Virus record (IMG/VR): IMGVR_UViG_3300049215_000210
Coordinates: 1-52,701 of that record
Source: a virus
Reading direction: 5' to 3' (one strand)
Length of the DNA stretch: 52,701 bases
The notes below the pieces were generated by a model. It saw only the letters and a program-made list of their open reading frames with translations, was not told the origin of the DNA and did no database searches. Positions 1,557 through 43,654 of this stretch are shown piece after piece; position 1 is the stretch's first letter; every line of letters begins with the position of its first letter. The position numbers and the translations under genes are program-made.

Positions 1557-3173
1557 ATGGCAGGAGCGAGAGGGTTTGCGAAACACCTGGAGCTGGACTT
1601 GACCAACCTTCCCGACGATGGGCGGGGGAACATGGTCATCACGCCCAACACCGAGACCCGGTTCTGGTCGTCCTACCAGGAGGCCATCTTTGAGTGGTTT
1701 GCTCACGGGAAGGGACATCTTGTTGTCGATGCGGTGGCCGGCAGTGGCAAGACGACTACCATCATCGAGGGTATCAACCACGCGTGGGAGGACGATGTCC
1801 TACTGACCGCCTTCACCAAGGACATCGCGGAGGTCCTGAACCAACGCCTCGCCGGCAAACCCGGGGCGCAGGCCAAGACTCTGCATGGCGTGGGGATGCG
1901 GTACATCGGCAGGCAGTATCGCGGCATCCCCATCAACAACAAGGACCGCGCCCGCTGGCTGGTCGACCAGGTGGGAGGGAGGAAGCTGCCCTTCCAGGTC
2001 ATGCGGGAGGTGGCGAACCTCCACACCAAGGCCCGGGAGGTCTCCCCCCTGGAGATGAGCCAGGAGATTATGCTGGCCATCATGGAGAAGTACGGGTTTG
2101 GGCTGGACGATAACTGGGGGCCGAGTGACGATGAACTTGCCGCCCTCGCCATCAAGGCGTATCGGTTCGCCGCCGACAACCCTCCCGACCGCCGGGTAGG
2201 GGTGGACTTCGCGGACATGATTTTCCTCCCCCTCCAGCAAGGGCTGTTGACTCCGGACTACCCGCTCATCGTGGTCGACGAGACTCAGGATATGAACAAG
2301 GGACAACTGGAGATGGTGGTCCGGATTTCCGATGGCCGCATCTGCATCGTGGGGGACCCCTACCAATCCATCTATCTATTTCGAGGGGCGGAGACGGGCG
2401 GCATGACGCAGATGAAGGACCGGCTGCAAGCGCAGAAGCTGCCCCTGTCGGTGACCTATCGGTGCGGTCATGCCATTGTGGCGGAGGCCCAGAAGCTGGT
2501 TCCGCATATCGAGGCCGGCGAGAAGAACCCCGAGGGGACCATCATCCTGGACCCCGGCGGCAACTACCTGTTCGACAACGTGACGGCGGGAGACTTCATC
2601 CTGTCCCGCATCAACGCGCCCCTGGTGAAGCTGTGTCTCCAGCTGCTGGCCGCTGGCAAGCGCGCCCGCATCAAAGGCCGGGACATCTCCAAGCAGATTC
2701 TGAAAATCCTCAAACGTATCAAGGCCGACAAGTCCTGGTCCCTCGCCTACCTGGAGGAGAAGGTCCGGGAGTACGAGGTCGAGCACACCACCCGGCTGGC
2801 GAGTAATGGCGACCCCGAGGGGGCTGACCGGGTGCGGGACAACTGTGCGGTCCTCTTTTTCATCGCGGAGGACAGCCGGGACATGTCCCAGTTCTACGAC
2901 AAATGCAGCTATCTCTTTGTCAAGGATGTGGATGTGTCGGAGTACATCATGCTGTCGTCGGTCCATAAGGCCAAGGGGCTAGAGGCCGACACCGTGTACG
3001 TCCTCGCGGACACCCTGTACCGATTCGGCTACAGCGAGGAGGAGCGCAACATCCACTACGTCGCCATCACCCGAGCCAAGTATACCCTCTACCTTGTGGA
3101 TGGGTTGGGGCTCACCCCCAAGCAGAAGGAGGCGAAGGCAAAACGCCTGGAACAGGAGGCCGCTGGCATCTAG
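1557..3173 (+). CDS. UvrD/Rep-family superfamily 1 DNA helicase
   Basis: A 538-residue SF1A helicase. Visible motifs: I AGSGKTT (61-67), II VVDETQD (239-245), III GDPYQSIYLFRGA (266-278), IV TYRCG (300-304), V SSVHKAKGLE (467-475) and VI YVAITRAK (501-508). It is shorter than cellular UvrD (about 720), with reduced 1B/2B insertions. Role: 3'-5' unwinding in phage replication or recombination; the direction is family knowledge. An upstream in-frame ATG at 1404 exists, but the extra 51 residues would read through palindrome A and are low in quality. ATG 1557 has GGAGG 5 nt upstream and follows a promoter, so it is preferred. Confidence 0.88.
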   Translation: MAGARGFAKHLELDLTNLPDDGRGNMVITPNTETRFWSSYQEAIFEWFAHGKGHLVVDAVAGSGKTTTIIEGINHAWEDDVLLTAFTKDIAEVLNQRLAGKPGAQAKTLHGVGMRYIGRQYRGIPINNKDRARWLVDQVGGRKLPFQVMREVANLHTKAREVSPLEMSQEIMLAIMEKYGFGLDDNWGPSDDELAALAIKAYRFAADNPPDRRVGVDFADMIFLPLQQGLLTPDYPLIVVDETQDMNKGQLEMVVRISDGRICIVGDPYQSIYLFRGAETGGMTQMKDRLQAQKLPLSVTYRCGHAIVAEAQKLVPHIEAGEKNPEGTIILDPGGNYLFDNVTAGDFILSRINAPLVKLCLQLLAAGKRARIKGRDISKQILKILKRIKADKSWSLAYLEEKVREYEVEHTTRLASNGDPEGADRVRDNCAVLFFIAEDSRDMSQFYDKCSYLFVKDVDVSEYIMLSSVHKAKGLEADTVYVLADTLYRFGYSEEERNIHYVAITRAKYTLYLVDGLGLTPKQKEAKAKRLEQEAAGI

Positions 3174-7471: not shown

Positions 7472-9611
7472 ACGGGCGACCATCGACTTCGAGACCCGTT
7501 CCGCCATCTCCATCAAGACGGCAGGAGCCTACCGCTATTCCGAGGACCCCTCGACGGAGGTCCTCTGTATGGCGTTTCGCCTTCCCCACTACGAGGATGA
7601 TTATGTCGACCTTTGGCACCCTGCGTACCCGCATCTTGGAATTGCTGAGGCGGAGACCCGCCCCCTCGCCGCTCTTTTTGAATGGGTCTCTCAGGGCGGC
7701 ATGGTGGAGGCTCATAACGCCCAGTTCGAGCGAGCGATATGGCGGAATGTCTGTGGACCAAGGCTTGGGTGGCCCCGAATATCCTCTCGTCAGTGGATGT
7801 GCTCAGCCGCCAAGGCAGCGGCCCATGCTCTACCTCGCGGGCTCGATGACACACTTGCCGCACTTAGACTCGATATACGAAAACTCGAAACATCCGTCAT
7901 CGCCGCAGGTCCTCGTGGAACCAAGCGAGTCAAGATTGTCCAGAAAGTTTCCAAACCCCGGAAGCCTCGCAAGGCTGAACGAGAGCGATGGGCTCGGACC
8001 CACTCAACGCCGGTGCCTATGCCCACCCTCTGGTGGGAAAGCCGGGAACTCTTCGAAACGCTCTGGGCGTATTGCAAGCAGGACGTGCTCGCAGAATTCC
8101 TCCTCAGTGAGACGCTCCCCGACCTCTCGGACTACGAACAGGAGGTCTACTGGGCGGACCAGGAGGCGAACGAGCGGGGGTTTCTCCTCGACAGGGATGG
8201 CGTGGACGCCGCCCTTGCGCTCATCAGTGAGGAGAATCGCATCCTTCTCGAAGAATTCCAAACGCTCACGCAGGGGCAAATAGAGTCGCCCCGGCAGCGT
8301 GCCAAGTTGATGACGTGGTTGGGCGAGCAGGGGCTGGTCATCGCCAACACCCGTAAGGACACTGTCGACGACATCCTAGAAGGAAAATACTATGCCTCCG
8401 GAGACCTTAACCAATCGGTGTTCCGCGTGCTCGAAATCCTTCGACAACTTGGCGCTTCCTCCACCGCCAAGTACGAATCCATGTCTGCGCAGATGTGCGT
8501 CGATAGCCGAGTGCGCGGAGGAATGCTTTATCATGGAGCGACTACGGGCCGGTGGTCCGGAGCGGGTGTTCAACCTCATAACTTTCCGAAAGGGGTCGTA
8601 GACCGCTGTCATGAACCTACAAAAAATCATCCCGACTGGTTGGGGATGGAAACATCCTGGGACGTGGTTAAAACTGCGGCTTCGCGCGAGGATTTACAAG
8701 ATATCTTCGCGGCCCCCACAATGCCTGTGCTCTCGTCCATCCTTCGGGGTGCGATTGTTGCTCCTCCCGGGCGGCAGCTCTATATCGCTGATTACGCGGG
8801 CATCGAAGCGAGGGTTCTCCTGTGGCTGGCTGAGGACGAGGAAGCACTGGGAGTGTTTCATCGGGGGGAAGATATCTACTGTGTGATGGCGGAGGCGATT
8901 TATGGCTACCCCTGCAACAAGACGGACCACCCTACTGAACGAGGCATTGGGAAAATCGCGGTACTTGGGCTGGGATATCAGATGGGCTGGTCTAGGTTCA
9001 TCGACACGGCTGCACTGGGCGGGGTCACCCTCACGGAAGACTTTAGCCGACGAGTTGTCGATGCATATCGTGCGAAATTTCATCGAGTCAAGTCGATGTG
9101 GTACGACCAGGAACGAGTTGCCATCCAAGCGACAGTGGATGAAGGCTGCGATTACGGGTGCGGTAAGATGGTCTGGGAGCGGGTCCAGAACGCCCAGAAG
9201 GGCACAGATTTTCTCTATTGCCATCTGCCTTCCGGAAGACGGCTGGCCTATCCTAATCCACAAGTGAGGTTGATGCCCACGTCGTGGGGCGACATGAAGG
9301 AAGCCCTCACCTTCATGGGCATCGACACCTACACACGGCAATGGAGGCGGCAGCAGACGTATGGGGGCTCGCTGGTGGAGAACCAGACTCAGGCAGTCGC
9401 CAGGGACTTCATGGCCGACGCCTTCCTCACCCTGTCGAAATCCCCAGTGTACGATGTCACGATGACTGTCCACGATGAAATTGTCTCCGAGGCACACCCT
9501 TTGCAAGGGAACATCCGAGAGTTTGAGCACATCCTGACCACCCTGCCTGACTGGGGCGAAGGATGCCCGATTGCGGCAGAGGGGTTCACGGGGAAGAGGT
9601 ATAGAAAATGA
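7464..9611 (+). CDS. Family A DNA polymerase with 3'-5' exonuclease
   Basis: A 715-residue replicative polymerase. The exonuclease domain shows TIDFET (Asp8, Glu10), AHNAQFE (81-89 region) and YCKQD (Tyr203, Asp207). The polymerase domain shows TGRWSG (361-366), motif A YIADYAGIEAR (Asp443), motif B R-x3-K-x7-YQ (Arg493, Lys497, Tyr505) and motif C TVHDEIV (His670, Asp671). Motif B has YQ, not the YG of bacterial Pol I, which fits phage enzymes. GTG 7464 is chosen because it starts right before the exonuclease strand; the in-frame upstream extension to 7401 is poor. ATGA links it to the next gene. Confidence 0.92.
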   Translation: MIERATIDFETRSAISIKTAGAYRYSEDPSTEVLCMAFRLPHYEDDYVDLWHPAYPHLGIAEAETRPLAALFEWVSQGGMVEAHNAQFERAIWRNVCGPRLGWPRISSRQWMCSAAKAAAHALPRGLDDTLAALRLDIRKLETSVIAAGPRGTKRVKIVQKVSKPRKPRKAERERWARTHSTPVPMPTLWWESRELFETLWAYCKQDVLAEFLLSETLPDLSDYEQEVYWADQEANERGFLLDRDGVDAALALISEENRILLEEFQTLTQGQIESPRQRAKLMTWLGEQGLVIANTRKDTVDDILEGKYYASGDLNQSVFRVLEILRQLGASSTAKYESMSAQMCVDSRVRGGMLYHGATTGRWSGAGVQPHNFPKGVVDRCHEPTKNHPDWLGMETSWDVVKTAASREDLQDIFAAPTMPVLSSILRGAIVAPPGRQLYIADYAGIEARVLLWLAEDEEALGVFHRGEDIYCVMAEAIYGYPCNKTDHPTERGIGKIAVLGLGYQMGWSRFIDTAALGGVTLTEDFSRRVVDAYRAKFHRVKSMWYDQERVAIQATVDEGCDYGCGKMVWERVQNAQKGTDFLYCHLPSGRRLAYPNPQVRLMPTSWGDMKEALTFMGIDTYTRQWRRQQTYGGSLVENQTQAVARDFMADAFLTLSKSPVYDVTMTVHDEIVSEAHPLQGNIREFEHILTTLPDWGEGCPIAAEGFTGKRYRK

Positions 9612-34153: not shown

Positions 34154-34169
34154 TGGCATATAACTTGCA
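34154..34169 (+). promoter_or_regulatory. Sigma-54-type -24/-12 promoter, leaderless unit
   Basis: TGGCAT-ATAAC-TTGCA. The predicted start at 34180 is one base before the ATG of the nuclease gene at 34181. The promoter-to-ATG distance is identical to that of the other free-standing nuclease gene at 40856. Confidence 0.65.
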
Positions 34170-34180
34170 ATATCCCAAGT

Positions 34181-34855
34181 ATGTCAATATCTTCTCGAAA
34201 TGCAGAAATTCTACAGCTTTTTAAATCCGGACAAACCGTGTGTCAAATAGCTCCGATATTTGGCATTTCTCGTCAACGAGTGCAACAAATCCTCAAACGT
34301 TGGGGAGTTTCTGCCCTCGAAGGAGGACAAGCAAAAACTCAACGCGAAAAACGAGCCACAAAGTTAGCGGAAAAAGAATCTCGTTGTATCCAAGAATGGG
34401 GACACGGACTATCTGAACACGCTTCTATTGTGGCTCTGCAAAAGGAGCAAAATTCTTACTACAGAGGTCCTTTAGGGGCCTTCAGGACTCAGCGTCGAAA
34501 TGCTGCCCGTCGTGGAATTGGGTGGCAACTTACGTTTGTTCAATGGTGGAAAATCTGGCAGGAATCTGGTAAATGGGAAAAAAGGGGAAGAGGAAATTTT
34601 GGCTATGTTATGGCTCGACATGGAGACGAAGGGCCTTATGCGGTTGATAATGTTTGTATCGAATTAAGTACAGACAATGTCGCCTCTCGAAAAAATTGTC
34701 AAAACAGAACATTACCCCGTGGAGTATACGAAACCGCTACCGGTAAATTTATCGCACATCGAATGATTCAAGGAAAACATCAATATCTGGGGACTTTTGA
34801 TAATTCTTTAGAGGCTTCAGAGGCTTACATAAAATCCGTCGAAAATCAAGGATAA
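34181..34855 (+). CDS. HTH / GPY-NV core / AP2-like homing-type nuclease protein
   Basis: A 224-residue protein. Residues 1-45 are a helix-turn-helix (CQIAPIFGISRQRVQQILKR). The middle has NFGYVMARHGDEGPYAVDNV (about 141-160), the core of a phage family of HNH/AP2 homing-type proteins. The C-terminus is AP2-like (GVYETATGKFIAHRM, YLGTFDNSLEASEAY). The gene is markedly AT-richer than its surroundings and lies antisense between scaffold and capsid genes, signs of recent insertion. Classical HNH catalytic residues are not obvious. It starts at the promoter's predicted +2, without a leader. Confidence 0.65.
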   Translation: MSISSRNAEILQLFKSGQTVCQIAPIFGISRQRVQQILKRWGVSALEGGQAKTQREKRATKLAEKESRCIQEWGHGLSEHASIVALQKEQNSYYRGPLGAFRTQRRNAARRGIGWQLTFVQWWKIWQESGKWEKRGRGNFGYVMARHGDEGPYAVDNVCIELSTDNVASRKNCQNRTLPRGVYETATGKFIAHRMIQGKHQYLGTFDNSLEASEAYIKSVENQG

Positions 34856-38734: not shown

Positions 38735-40261
38735 CTACATCGAGGCAAGCATTCGGGGCGGCTGCTTCGGCCGCATCCACCGGGGAATCTCGTTGAGATG
38801 GGGCTCGCGTGCCGGCATGGCGTTCCCCATACAGAAGTACGCCAGGCTCACCACCCAGTGGTCGTTGCCGTTGGCGATTTTGCGCGGGTCGTTCTCGTCC
38901 ATCTGTTGGACCGGAAGGGTCTTGATGAGTTCGGGGCAGCCCCCGTACTTCCCATGCCCACCCCTCATAATCTGGAGCTGCGGTCGGTCGTCGATGATGG
39001 TGTTGAGGTAATCGTGGATGGCGGTCCCGTAGACCTCGCGGTTGTTCTGGGCCGGCGTGAGGGGCACGCCGTTGGTCTCAAACTGCTCCGCTATCGAGTA
39101 CTTGCTGGCCCCGTCCTTGATGAACATGGTGGGGTCGCAGAACGTGTCGAGGATTCTCATTCCCTTCGACAGGTTCTTGATTTGTGTCGCTACATCCTTC
39201 GCCAGCGTCCTCCGCCAATGCCTCTCCATGAACGGGACCGCCCGTTTGTTCGGGAACACCGCAATCCACAGGCAGACCGCCGGGTCGGGGAAGTACCCCC
39301 AATCGACTGCCCGGTAGATACTCATCCACGACAGCGAGAAAATCTCCTGGTCCTGGCCGGTGCCGGGGTCCCGGTAGGTGGGCATCACGTCGATGACGTG
39401 CCACTGGACCACCTCTTCCTTGTCGCGGACCCCCTCCTCCGGCTCCAGCAACTTCCGCTGCACAAAGTCCGTGAAATACGCCCCCTCGATGACGAATTCC
39501 CCCAGCAACCACGCCTTCCTGATATGGTCCGGGAGGTTGCGGAGGCGCTTCTCATACGTCTTCTTGTCGATGTACTTGTTCTGCTCCAGGGTCTGGAACT
39601 GCATCTCGAAGTCTTCCGGGAGGTAGTCCGGGAAGTCGACGAGATTGACATCATGGTCGACGAACCAACTTTTCAGCCACGGGGCTCCGGGTCCCAGAGG
39701 GTTCGTTCCTGCGCGGACCACGGCAACATAGGGAGCATCTGCGGGCGCTCGGGCCGCAGCACTAATCTGGAGGAACATATCGAGGTCAAATGTTGAGAGT
39801 TCGTCGAACCCAATGAACCCCCACTCGCTCGACAGGAAGTTGAGGACATCTTTGATGGTTTCGCAGTGCGAGAATTGGATGACCGAGCCATTGGGGAATT
39901 TTGCCTCGAAGGTGGTCCACAGGAATTTGCCCCCCAACAGCTCCATCTCAGCGGCGATGAACGCCAGGTGGCTCTTGCGGAGGTCGGGGATAGTACGACG
40001 AAGAATCAAGGCCCGGAAATTCGGGAACATGAGACACCGAATGATGGCGTCCCACCGGAGTTGTTTGGATTTCCCCGTGCCCCGGGTCCCCAGGGCCAGG
40101 AGGTTGCTCGCATTCGACGCATGGAACGGCACCTGGTGGGGCTGGGGGCAGTACGCCACCACCTGCTCGCCATCCTTCTCCACCACGACCGAGTTGGCCA
40201 GCTCGTCGGGGAAGTAATCGCTGAAAGTACGGGGTAGGGTCGCCCGGTCGGCTCTCGGCAT
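38735..40261 (-). CDS. Terminase large subunit
   Basis: A 508-residue packaging motor. Walker A is GTRGTGKS (58-65). An ATPase coupling stretch RALILRRTIPDLRKSH follows. Walker B is FIGFDELS (149-156). The C-terminal RNase H-like nuclease shows AVDWGYFPDPA, DTFCDPTMF and a late acidic cluster (NGNDHWVVSLAY). Start ATG 40261 follows the small terminase stop. Confidence 0.92.
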   Translation of the reverse strand: MPRADRATLPRTFSDYFPDELANSVVVEKDGEQVVAYCPQPHQVPFHASNASNLLALGTRGTGKSKQLRWDAIIRCLMFPNFRALILRRTIPDLRKSHLAFIAAEMELLGGKFLWTTFEAKFPNGSVIQFSHCETIKDVLNFLSSEWGFIGFDELSTFDLDMFLQISAAARAPADAPYVAVVRAGTNPLGPGAPWLKSWFVDHDVNLVDFPDYLPEDFEMQFQTLEQNKYIDKKTYEKRLRNLPDHIRKAWLLGEFVIEGAYFTDFVQRKLLEPEEGVRDKEEVVQWHVIDVMPTYRDPGTGQDQEIFSLSWMSIYRAVDWGYFPDPAVCLWIAVFPNKRAVPFMERHWRRTLAKDVATQIKNLSKGMRILDTFCDPTMFIKDGASKYSIAEQFETNGVPLTPAQNNREVYGTAIHDYLNTIIDDRPQLQIMRGGHGKYGGCPELIKTLPVQQMDENDPRKIANGNDHWVVSLAYFCMGNAMPAREPHLNEIPRWMRPKQPPRMLASM

Positions 40262-40828: not shown

Positions 40829-40844
40829 TGGCATTCGGATTGCA
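40829..40844 (+). promoter_or_regulatory. Sigma-54-type -24/-12 promoter, leaderless unit
   Basis: TGGCAT-TCGGA-TTGCA. The predicted start at 40855 is one base before the ATG at 40856, the same geometry as at 34154. Confidence 0.65.
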
Positions 40845-41320: not shown

Positions 41321-41614
41321 ATGGACATCACCACCGAACCGCAGTACCTGGAGAAGGAAGTCCTGCAGCTGGACTTTGTATTCTTAGGGAGCACCACCCC
41401 GCTGCCCCTCACCCTGGAGGTCACCGACTCCATTGTCGAGGGCAAGGAAGACCTGGTCCTCACCCTTTCCGACAGCCGAGGGAACATCAAGGTTATCTCC
41501 ATCGAGCGCCGCAACCTCCTCTACTGGTCGAGCATGAAGACCCGTATCCGTGTCATTAACCCGAAGTACGCCAAACCCCAACCCACACCACCCACATCAG
41601 GAGACAATCAGTGA
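41321..41614 (+). CDS. Hypothetical protein, 97 residues
   Basis: Beta-rich first half (VLQLDFVFLGSTTPLPLTLE) and a Pro/Thr-rich tail. GAGGAG lies upstream of ATG. The stop overlaps the next start. Not recognised. Confidence 0.55.
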   Translation: MDITTEPQYLEKEVLQLDFVFLGSTTPLPLTLEVTDSIVEGKEDLVLTLSDSRGNIKVISIERRNLLYWSSMKTRIRVINPKYAKPQPTPPTSGDNQ

Positions 41615-41913
41615 CAAACCCGAAAATCGCTCTGTTCCTCGACGCGGTGAGCCGGCTCCTCCCGGTCCTCGGCCCTGCCCTCCGCATCCCGCCGGCCTAC
41701 CTCCCGGTCATCCAGGATGGCATCGCGCTGGCGGAGTCCTCGAATCTCGAGGGCAACGACAAGCTGACGGCCGCCGTCAACCATGTCACCGCCAACCAGC
41801 CAGCGAAATCGGATGGTAGCGGTACGGTTGGGTTCGCCCTCGGCCCGCTCACCGATGCGATTGGTGCGGTGGTCGACGCATCGAACGTCGCCACCACGCT
41901 GAACAAATTCTAG
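41611..41913 (+). CDS. Hypothetical protein, 100 residues
   Basis: GTG start at 41611 overlapping the previous TGA. Contains two amphipathic or hydrophobic helices (IALFLDAVSRLLPVLGPAL, GFALGPLTDAIGAVVDAS) but no clear membrane span. A hairpin follows at 41918. Not recognised. Confidence 0.5.
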   Translation: MTNPKIALFLDAVSRLLPVLGPALRIPPAYLPVIQDGIALAESSNLEGNDKLTAAVNHVTANQPAKSDGSGTVGFALGPLTDAIGAVVDASNVATTLNKF

Positions 41914-41969: not shown

Positions 41970-41985
41970 AGGTACGGGGATTGCA
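41970..41985 (+). promoter_or_regulatory. Sigma-54-type -24/-12 promoter for glycosyltransferase gene
   Basis: AGGTAC-GGGGA-TTGCA; A replaces the first T, while GG, GC and the spacing are kept. The predicted start near 41996 is 3 nt before ATG 41999, again nearly leaderless. Confidence 0.5.
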
Positions 41986-41998
41986 GTACTACCCTCTC

Positions 41999-43009
41999 AT
42001 GAATGTTTGCATCGTGATTCCGGCGTACAACGAGGAGAAGCTGTTGGGGCGCGCTATCCGAAGCGCCGTCTACGCCGGCATCTCCCCCGACGATATCTAC
42101 GTGTTTGACGATGGGTCCAAGGACCACACCGCTGCGGTCGCCCATCGGTACGAGGTCAATGTCCGGTCGGCGGGGAATGCTGGCAAGGCCATCGCCATCC
42201 AGAATGGTATCCAGTACTTCCGGCTGTTCGACCGCTACGAGTGGCTGACCATCCTGGATGCGGATTCCCTCCTCGACAAGGACTACTTCCACTCCATCGG
42301 GGACGCGACCGTGCGATACCCCGAATGTGCGGCGGTATGCGGCGCCCCCCGGTCACAGCGTGGCAACTGGCTCACGGCCTTTAGGGCAGTAGAGACCACC
42401 CTCTCCACATGCGTGTACCGGGAGGCCCAGCATCTGATGGGCGCGATTACGGTCGCTCCGGGGTGCGCGACCACCTATCGGACGGCGGCCTTCCGTCACC
42501 TGGACTTCGGGGGTGGCACGCTCACCGAAGATATGGACTGGACCGTCCAGTTCCAGCGCAAGGGCGAGCAGGTGGTGCAGGCCCACAACGCCCTCGTCTA
42601 TACCCAGGACCCCCTCACGCTCGGGGGCTTCCGTGGTCAGGTCATGCGGTGGTACCGAGGTCTCTGGCAAGTGGTGAGGCTGCATCGGTTGTGCCGGCAG
42701 GCCACCAAGATTGATGCCGAGTTCGCCCTGGTGCTGGGCGAGGCCCTCATCTTTGGCGCAATCCTTGCATTACTGCCGCTGTGGTTGGTGCTGTTTCCAG
42801 GCAAGACCCTGATGGCTCTGGCGATGGACCAGGCCATCTTCTTCGGGTTCACGATACTAACGGCAGTGAGGGAAAAGCGGTGGGATGTTATCTACAGTTT
42901 CCCCCTCTATCTCATTCCCCGCATCTTCGGGTACGCGCTGTTCATCAGCGCATTCATCTTGGAACGTCGGAAATCGGAAACGCGCTGGTATTCTCCAGCC
43001 CGCTACTAG
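41999..43009 (+). CDS. Membrane processive family 2 glycosyltransferase
   Basis: A 336-residue GT2 enzyme. It has VIPAYNEE (7-13), FDDGS (36-40), DAD (87-89), TEDMDW with the catalytic-base region (176-181) and QVMRW (214-218), the QxxRW signature of processive synthases (cellulose, chitin, hyaluronan, PNAG type). Three C-terminal membrane spans follow (about 243-265, 272-292, 299-320); no N-terminal span is seen. It likely polymerises a sugar at the host inner membrane. It is translationally close to a secreted protein. TTG 41981 is an alternative start but would lie inside the promoter. Confidence 0.82.
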   Translation: MNVCIVIPAYNEEKLLGRAIRSAVYAGISPDDIYVFDDGSKDHTAAVAHRYEVNVRSAGNAGKAIAIQNGIQYFRLFDRYEWLTILDADSLLDKDYFHSIGDATVRYPECAAVCGAPRSQRGNWLTAFRAVETTLSTCVYREAQHLMGAITVAPGCATTYRTAAFRHLDFGGGTLTEDMDWTVQFQRKGEQVVQAHNALVYTQDPLTLGGFRGQVMRWYRGLWQVVRLHRLCRQATKIDAEFALVLGEALIFGAILALLPLWLVLFPGKTLMALAMDQAIFFGFTILTAVREKRWDVIYSFPLYLIPRIFGYALFISAFILERRKSETRWYSPARY

Positions 43010-43017
43010 GAGGCAGA

Positions 43018-43440
43018 ATGAAAGGGACGATTCTCGCGGTGGCAGTGGCAGCAGTGATGGCGGTGACGGGCTCAGCGTCCGCCCAGGAAATCTACTACCC
43101 GGGGTCCGTGTGGACCAGCAACGGCAACCTCACCCCCGCTGAGAAGGGGAACCTCTTCACCCAGACCCACGTCGAGCAGGGCGTGGCCTTCCGTGGAGCC
43201 GAGGTCTTCGGGCAGACCACCCTCGGGATGGATTCCAAGGGTTACGACTGGAACCGCAAGATGCTCGGGGGCGTGGGTGCCCGCTTCACCCAGACCATCG
43301 GTCCTGGCATGGTTCGTGCAAGCGTGAGCTACGTGTCAGAGAAGCGATTCGTTACAGATGCCGTCCACTCGGGTATCGTGGTGGCCGTCGAGGCATGGTT
43401 CGGATGGAACCAATCCCCCCGTCCTCAGGGAGGGAAGTAG
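43018..43440 (+). CDS. Secreted protein, partner of the glycosyltransferase
   Basis: 140 residues with a clean Sec signal (MKGTILAVAVAAVMAVTGSASAQ). The mature part alternates aromatic and polar residues (GVGARFTQTIGPGMVRASVSY, GIVVAVEAWFGW), consistent with amphipathic outer-membrane beta strands. AGGAGG overlaps the stop codon of the synthase, so they are coupled. It could be a small export pore or surface factor for the polymer. Confidence 0.65.
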   Translation: MKGTILAVAVAAVMAVTGSASAQEIYYPGSVWTSNGNLTPAEKGNLFTQTHVEQGVAFRGAEVFGQTTLGMDSKGYDWNRKMLGGVGARFTQTIGPGMVRASVSYVSEKRFVTDAVHSGIVVAVEAWFGWNQSPRPQGGK

Positions 43441-43442
43441 TC

Positions 43443-43532
43443 ATGTACATGCTCATTCCGCCCTTCGGCGTGGGGCAAGTCATTCACCTGGTCGGGGCCG
43501 TGATGTCCCGTCTCGCGGGTCTCTTCCGATGA
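43443..43532 (+). CDS. 29-residue hydrophobic peptide
   Basis: It starts 2 bases after the previous stop, and its TGA overlaps the next ATG. It is mostly hydrophobic (LIPPFGVGQVIHLVGAVM). The coupling supports translation; function unknown. Confidence 0.4.
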   Translation: MYMLIPPFGVGQVIHLVGAVMSRLAGLFR

Positions 43533-43654
43533 GGCGGTTCTTCCAACGGGTGATGGGCATTCGTGCCCGCCGCCTGCAAGAGGCGAGGGACCGGCGGACC
43601 ATGCAAGCCATCCTCAGGAATTTCTCCACTGTGACAGCGAGGAATCAGTGGTAG
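43529..43654 (+). CDS. 41-residue basic peptide
   Basis: ATGA overlap with the previous gene and a 7-base overlap with the next GTG. It is very Arg-rich (MRRFFQRVMGIRARRLQEAR). Possibly a nucleic-acid-binding microprotein. Confidence 0.4.
   Translation: MRRFFQRVMGIRARRLQEARDRRTMQAILRNFSTVTARNQW

Follow-up and report, generated by a model that had tools for sequence, protein, structure and literature searches.

The window analyzed here, i.e., the whole stretch of DNA with a length of 52,701 bases (59% G+C), is a single IMG/VR virus record featuring genes for a phage terminase, major head protein, DNA polymerase, helicase, and exonuclease. A rightward accessory cassette (about 40.8-44.6 kb) is flanked by the leftward late operon, harboring the terminase gene (38735-40261), and the next leftward genes. 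The cassette starts with an endonuclease VII/HNH gene and includes two small ORFs of 97 and 100 aa (41321..41913, + strand, from the ORF list), followed by a GT2 gene, the gene of a secreted protein, and more small ORFs. The 97-aa ORF is weakly similar to a gene at the matching place in a relative contig, L005, whose terminase is 61% identical and which carries a different gene set between the late and early genes.

Sequence and predicted fold of the two gene products

The GT2 gene (41999..43009, + strand; start codon ATG at 41999, stop codon at 43007-43009) encodes a PgaC/HAS-like polysaccharide synthase of 336 aa, as judged from Pfam, NCBIfam, AlphaFold2, Foldseek, and its homologs. The first-pass annotation, made from the sequence alone, described a GT2 enzyme with DxD, TED, and QxxRW motifs and three membrane spans, and this description is borne out: the motifs are found as DAD (residues 87-89), TED (176-178), and QVMRW (214-218), and hydropathy reveals three C-terminal hydrophobic segments (249-267, 272-290, and 303-321). 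The Pfam family hit is Glyco_tranf_2_3 (3e-21), and the nearest NCBIfam model is PgaC_IcaA (1.7e-26). The latter was nearest for both phage GT2s tested, that of the window (93 bits) and that of contig L064, with scores of 93-104 bits vs. a cut-off of 422. Across the phage GT2 clade, QxxRW and the E-D of TED are invariant.

The same annotation had proposed a structure comparison and named a non-processive fold as grounds for rejection. The AlphaFold2 model, predicted with 17 family members as input (pLDDT 84), is closest to processive membrane-integrated synthases rather than to a non-processive enzyme: in Foldseek, the chlorovirus hyaluronan synthase comes out as the top PDB match (TM 0.80, E 5e-14), with chitin synthases and BcsA (TM about 0.72) next. 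One hallmark of processive synthases, DxD/TED/QxxRW in a GT-A fold, is present. Another hallmark, a channel built with N- and C-terminal transmembrane helices, is not, since only the three C-terminal segments are present. The N-terminal helices are absent from every phage GT2 copy, whereas most cellular relatives possess them; as a result, translocation could be impaired, or the enzyme could be non-processive. This absence is the chief reason for caution about the passage of the chain across the membrane. Polymerization by the GT2 enzyme is itself inferred, without biochemical proof.

The stop codon of the GT2 gene overlaps the ribosome-binding site of the second gene, just as had been claimed: read off the sequence, the TAG lies in TAGGAGG (43007..43013, + strand) ahead of the ATG at 43018. 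The second gene (43018..43440, + strand) encodes a secreted beta protein of 140 aa, whose six strands resemble an outer-membrane-type half-barrel according to its homologs, AlphaFold2, and BFVD; it is referred to below as the barrel protein. The small signal-peptide beta protein anticipated at this place is thus recovered, with a hydrophobic signal peptide at about residues 1-22, ending in ...SASA|QE, and six beta strands, predicted to be amphipathic, in the AlphaFold2 model (pLDDT 78.6). An outer-membrane barrel is defined, among other features, by an aromatic C-terminal strand and a closed barrel of at least eight strands; the features seen here are the signal peptide, a beta meander, and a conserved W-x-G-W end, with only six strands predicted.

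The barrel family is not assigned by Pfam, NCBIfam, or PHROGs; the model has no significant PDB match, and the barrel alignment, used as a profile against the PDB, returned nothing. No TPR or PgaA similarity was found. In BFVD, the fold matches are cyanophage OMP-like barrels of about 115 aa (TM 0.4-0.5). The phmmer matches to KcsA were rejected, as they look like artefacts of signal-peptide composition. By analogy with a tandem form from cellular genomes (see below), it is inferred that the protein may act as a dimer equal to twelve strands.

Promoter-like sites of the -24/-12 type

A promoter of the -24/-12 type had been claimed for the gene pair, and such a site is indeed present: the sigma-54-like motif AGGTAC-GGGGA-TTGCA (41970..41985, + strand) deviates from TGGYAY-N5-TTGCA by one mismatch, its GG and GC being at the sigma-54 spacing. 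Exact TGGYAY/TTGCA pairs occur in the window eight times at a spacing of 5, and none of the other spacings between 0 and 16 yields more than one; with one mismatch allowed, there are 18 pairs at a spacing of 5 vs. at most six at other spacings. Because the counts are so spacing-specific, this class of sites cannot be ascribed to chance, and it is real in the phage represented by the window. The description of sigma-54 promoters (GG...GC 12 bp apart, TGGCAYR-N4-TTGCA, location upstream of genes) is satisfied, the copy ahead of the GT2 gene with one mismatch.

The sites listed on the + strand start at 3164, 10012, 34154, 40829, 41970, 49224, 49289, 49964, and 51167, and a further site (40798-40783, - strand) faces the terminase operon. 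The latter forms a divergent pair with the site at 40829-40844 (+), which faces the HNH gene. In most cases, an exact site is situated in a gap, with a start codon 11-45 nt away. At 34154, 40829, and 41970, the distance from TTGCA to the start codon is only 11-13 nt, so the transcripts would be nearly leaderless. There is no good ribosome-binding site ahead of the GT2 start codon, and the site at 41970-41985, if it is a promoter, would place the transcript start about 3 nt 5' of this ATG. An HTH protein encoded at 34181-34855 (+), on the strand opposite to its late-gene neighbors, also has an exact -24/-12-like site of its own and is possibly a phage regulator.

Reading of these sites by sigma-54 remains an inference. 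Neither a phage-encoded sigma-54 nor its activator was detected in the window (no Sigma54_activat or Sigma54_DBD), and an AAA+ enhancer-binding activator would have to be supplied by the host. Around the GT2 loci of other phages, sigma-54-like motifs show no enrichment, so this promoter class belongs to the phage of the window and not to the module; in several of the other phages, sigma-70-like elements were noticed by eye directly 5' of the GT2 gene.

Distribution and larger versions of the module

Scans of viral contigs for close relatives with single proteins of the window retrieved none, and no homologs of the barrel protein were found among cultured phages and plasmids. Alignment-based scans (A4 and A7) of IMG/VR yielded 16 further distinct phage contigs, 15 to 358 kb long, near-identical ones being counted once. 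With the family profile, no member of the phage GT2 clade falls below 437 bits, and no other match, the 80 cellular loci included, exceeds 189. In the tree, the phage GT2s cluster together with support, and the only protein joining them is a long-branched one from a Mesorhizobium plasmid, whose place is unsure.

A barrel homolog is encoded in the GT2 locus of all 17 contigs (the window and the 16 others), in most of them immediately 3' of the GT2 gene. In L070 and L074, it is located about 1.9 kb downstream, past a deacetylase gene and one more gene, the latter encoding an Acyl_transf_3 protein (Pfam) in L070. A barrel profile built without the copy from the window still recovers it (E=1.5e-18). 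An unrelated secreted protein in other genomes would, according to the first-pass annotation, have refuted the link between the two genes; the presence of homologs at the GT2 locus in 16 of 16 other contigs rules this out. Six viral contigs coding for other membrane GT2s were devoid of the barrel, and so were a Moorella phage, the Mesorhizobium plasmid, and ten bacterial genomes carrying related GT2s. In the 20-kb record of the Moorella phage MCACPph1 (L010), an unrelated membrane GT2 (7878-9020) is found beside a protein annotated as Hoc-like.

Among the large contigs, judging from the nearest terminases, L067 is close to T4-like cyanophages, L070 to the PA5oct group, and L072 to XacN1-like jumbo phages. 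The terminase of the window has no match in the carrier contigs, several of which are fragments possibly lacking the gene. Since the carriers are close to several phage groups and none matches this terminase, the module seemingly moves as a unit. The signal peptides together with the outer-membrane-type partner point to diderm hosts.

Profiles of neighboring genes, run across the 17 contigs, revealed larger versions of the module. A short Pro-rich membrane protein is encoded in 15 of them, with weak matches in three of these. Eleven contigs carry a YkuD-like L,D-transpeptidase, eight a NodB-type deacetylase, and seven a GH16 protein; an acyltransferase is present in two, recognized in L070 by Pfam and in L074 by position and similar sequence. 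The motifs DDG and HxxxH of the deacetylase and TxGCxN of the transpeptidase are invariant. For the deacetylases of L064 (1e-17) and L070 (4e-29), the nearest NCBIfam model is PgaB, below its cut-off; for that of L072, it is HfsH. The window carries the core pair only: no deacetylase was found with Pfam, and the profiles gave no match to the transpeptidase, GH16, or the Pro-rich protein, and the version in the window may therefore act in another way. The 29-aa ORF right after the barrel gene (43444..43533, + strand), characterized by position only, merely occupies the place of the Pro-rich gene elsewhere. Other genes were encountered near the module as well: those of secreted Asn/Gly/Ser/Thr-rich repeat proteins with a curli-like look (L057, 9196-9891; L063, 10311-11084; L068, 4618-5403), ClpX-like genes (L062, L064, L066, L069, and L071), and ClpS-like genes (L064, L066, L069, and L071).

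The barrel was also sought in bacteria, in two samples of proteobacterial genomes (398 and 369). A convincing copy was found in two genomes, both with the unit occurring twice in one protein; the independent scores were 5e-5 and 1e-17, the later profile having already included these copies. In the gammaproteobacterial locus L188 (G594:C205, 4956-10146), the tandem barrel adjoins genes for a PgaC-like GT2, a NodB deacetylase, and a PgaB-like glycosidase, the latter two separated by an apparent frameshift. This locus possibly represents an undescribed Pga-like exopolysaccharide system. As an independent cellular case, it supports both the functional link of the barrel to polymer synthesis and the idea of a dimer. 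The other two-unit protein (L189, G239:C3, 5145-5939) has no GT2 nearby within the 11 kb read.

Interpretation and comparison with known systems

The two genes are best explained as the core pair of a small exopolysaccharide system that is carried by phages and works like a stripped-down Pga/Ica, a reading to which a probability of roughly 0.7 is assigned, the identity of the polymer, its export, and its benefit being inferred. Computation has established the enzyme family and fold class, the linkage of the GT2 to the barrel, the linkage to a PgaB-like deacetylase elsewhere, and the spread over unrelated phages. Under the proposed mechanism, the pair would be expressed from the promoter directly 5' of the GT2 gene, and at the inner membrane, the enzyme would polymerize a nucleotide-sugar, probably UDP-GlcNAc (the product of Pga/Ica being poly-beta-1,6-GlcNAc). 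The signal-peptide beta protein would reach the outer membrane, where it would provide passage or an anchor for the chain, probably in dimeric form. In the larger versions, the PgaB-like deacetylase, GH16 hydrolase, acyltransferase, and YkuD-like transpeptidase may trim, decorate, or attach the polymer. A phage-specified glycan would thereby appear on the infected cell, its most plausible effects being changed adsorption of other phages, cell clumping, or an envelope change late in infection. Blocking of other phages is an inference and one among several possible roles.

Other explanations of the locus need to be weighed against this one. The GT2 could be a non-processive transferase of the GtrB type, involved in O-antigen conversion and adding a single sugar to a lipid carrier, with the barrel as an unrelated receptor-blocking outer membrane protein; the cell surface would then be changed without a new polymer. 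Seroconversion genes are often carried by phages, PHROGs matches the GT2 to GtrB-like O-antigen conversion (1e-5), and the lack of N-terminal helices fits such a transferase. Still, this is unlikely in view of the invariant QxxRW and E-D of TED, the position of HAS, chitin synthase, and BcsA at the top of the fold matches, the strict barrel linkage, and the NodB-type deacetylase in eight contigs; moreover, no GtrA or GtrC partner was seen in the neighborhood.

A marginally weaker candidate is remodeling of peptidoglycan, which would delay lysis or block superinfecting phages: the deacetylase and L,D-transpeptidase would act on the wall, the barrel and the Pro-rich protein would tie the envelope layers, and the GT2 would make a short wall-attached glycan. 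The frequency of the transpeptidase, the deacetylase, and the Pro-rich protein (11, eight, and 15 of the 17 contigs, respectively) speaks for it. At the same time, the invariant core consists of the GT2 and the barrel rather than the wall enzymes, and the deacetylases of L064 and L070 are nearer to PgaB than to PgdA, though that of L072 is nearest to HfsH; GH16 is, to our knowledge, not a family of peptidoglycan enzymes. That the two genes are unrelated morons brought together by coincidence in a hypervariable cassette can hardly be maintained: the cassette is variable, as the different set in L005 illustrates, but the linkage in every carrier contig across several phage groups, plus one bacterium, already contradicts this notion.

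Overall, the recurrence of the pair in 16 other environmental phages, several of them with additional enzymes for polymer modification, is a sign that certain bacteriophages may cause the bacteria they infect to produce a new polysaccharide. A bolder version, for which the odds fall somewhat short of even, holds that bacteriophages of a widespread class, ranging from about 40 kb to jumbo size, share a mobile module making infected bacteria synthesize, modify, and export an extracellular hexosamine polymer specified by the phage via a new dimeric small outer-membrane exporter, as a bacterial counterpart of the hyaluronan/chitin coats of chloroviruses. Phages have a reputation for breaking down the polysaccharides of their hosts and are not known for making them; no report of a bacteriophage polysaccharide synthase or polysaccharide-synthesis module was found in the open-access literature. 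A conserved pair of a synthase and an outer-membrane protein in otherwise unrelated phages, accompanied by Pga-like tailoring enzymes, brings phage-directed glycan synthesis within direct experimental reach. It would provide a minimal two-gene system for the study of polymer export and is a candidate for understanding superinfection exclusion, effects on biofilms, and the unresolved reason for the coating of hosts by chloroviruses.

Among the known systems, the cyanophage OMP-like beta-barrel family resembles the phage barrel in its fold in BFVD, with a modest TM. The Bcs cellulose synthase-exporter shares the GT2 fold and motifs and the pairing of a synthase with an outer-membrane barrel; the phage module differs in being far smaller and in lacking the PilZ domain, BcsB, and BcsC. 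Like the phage GT2, the hyaluronan/chitin synthases of chloroviruses (e.g., PBCV-1 A98R) are virus-encoded, and they provide the closest solved structure to its model. Unlike it, they belong to a eukaryotic virus, are single-gene systems with N- and C-terminal membrane helices, and have no outer-membrane partner; the identity to the phage enzyme is only about 15%. That a virus can cover its host with polysaccharide is known from chloroviruses, whose benefit from it is unresolved; the fibres on their hosts hinder the attachment of other viruses, and exclusion there has a different cause (PMC5408694).

The closest parallel is Pga/Ica (HmsHFRS), yet the phage module is not a member of this family: the PgaC/IcaA score is under the cut-off, and the window has no PgaB/IcaB deacetylase, PgaA, or PgaD, nor was a PgaD-like transmembrane protein seen beside the GT2. 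The phage enzyme is phage-carried, without the N-terminal helices, a six-strand protein takes the place of the TPR-porin PgaA, and the larger phage versions add the transpeptidase, GH16, and the Pro-rich protein. The two systems are alike in the nearest NCBIfam model (PgaC), in the outer-membrane component, in the PgaB-like deacetylase of several phage versions, and in an IcaC-like acyltransferase, present in L070 and, judged by position, also in L074.
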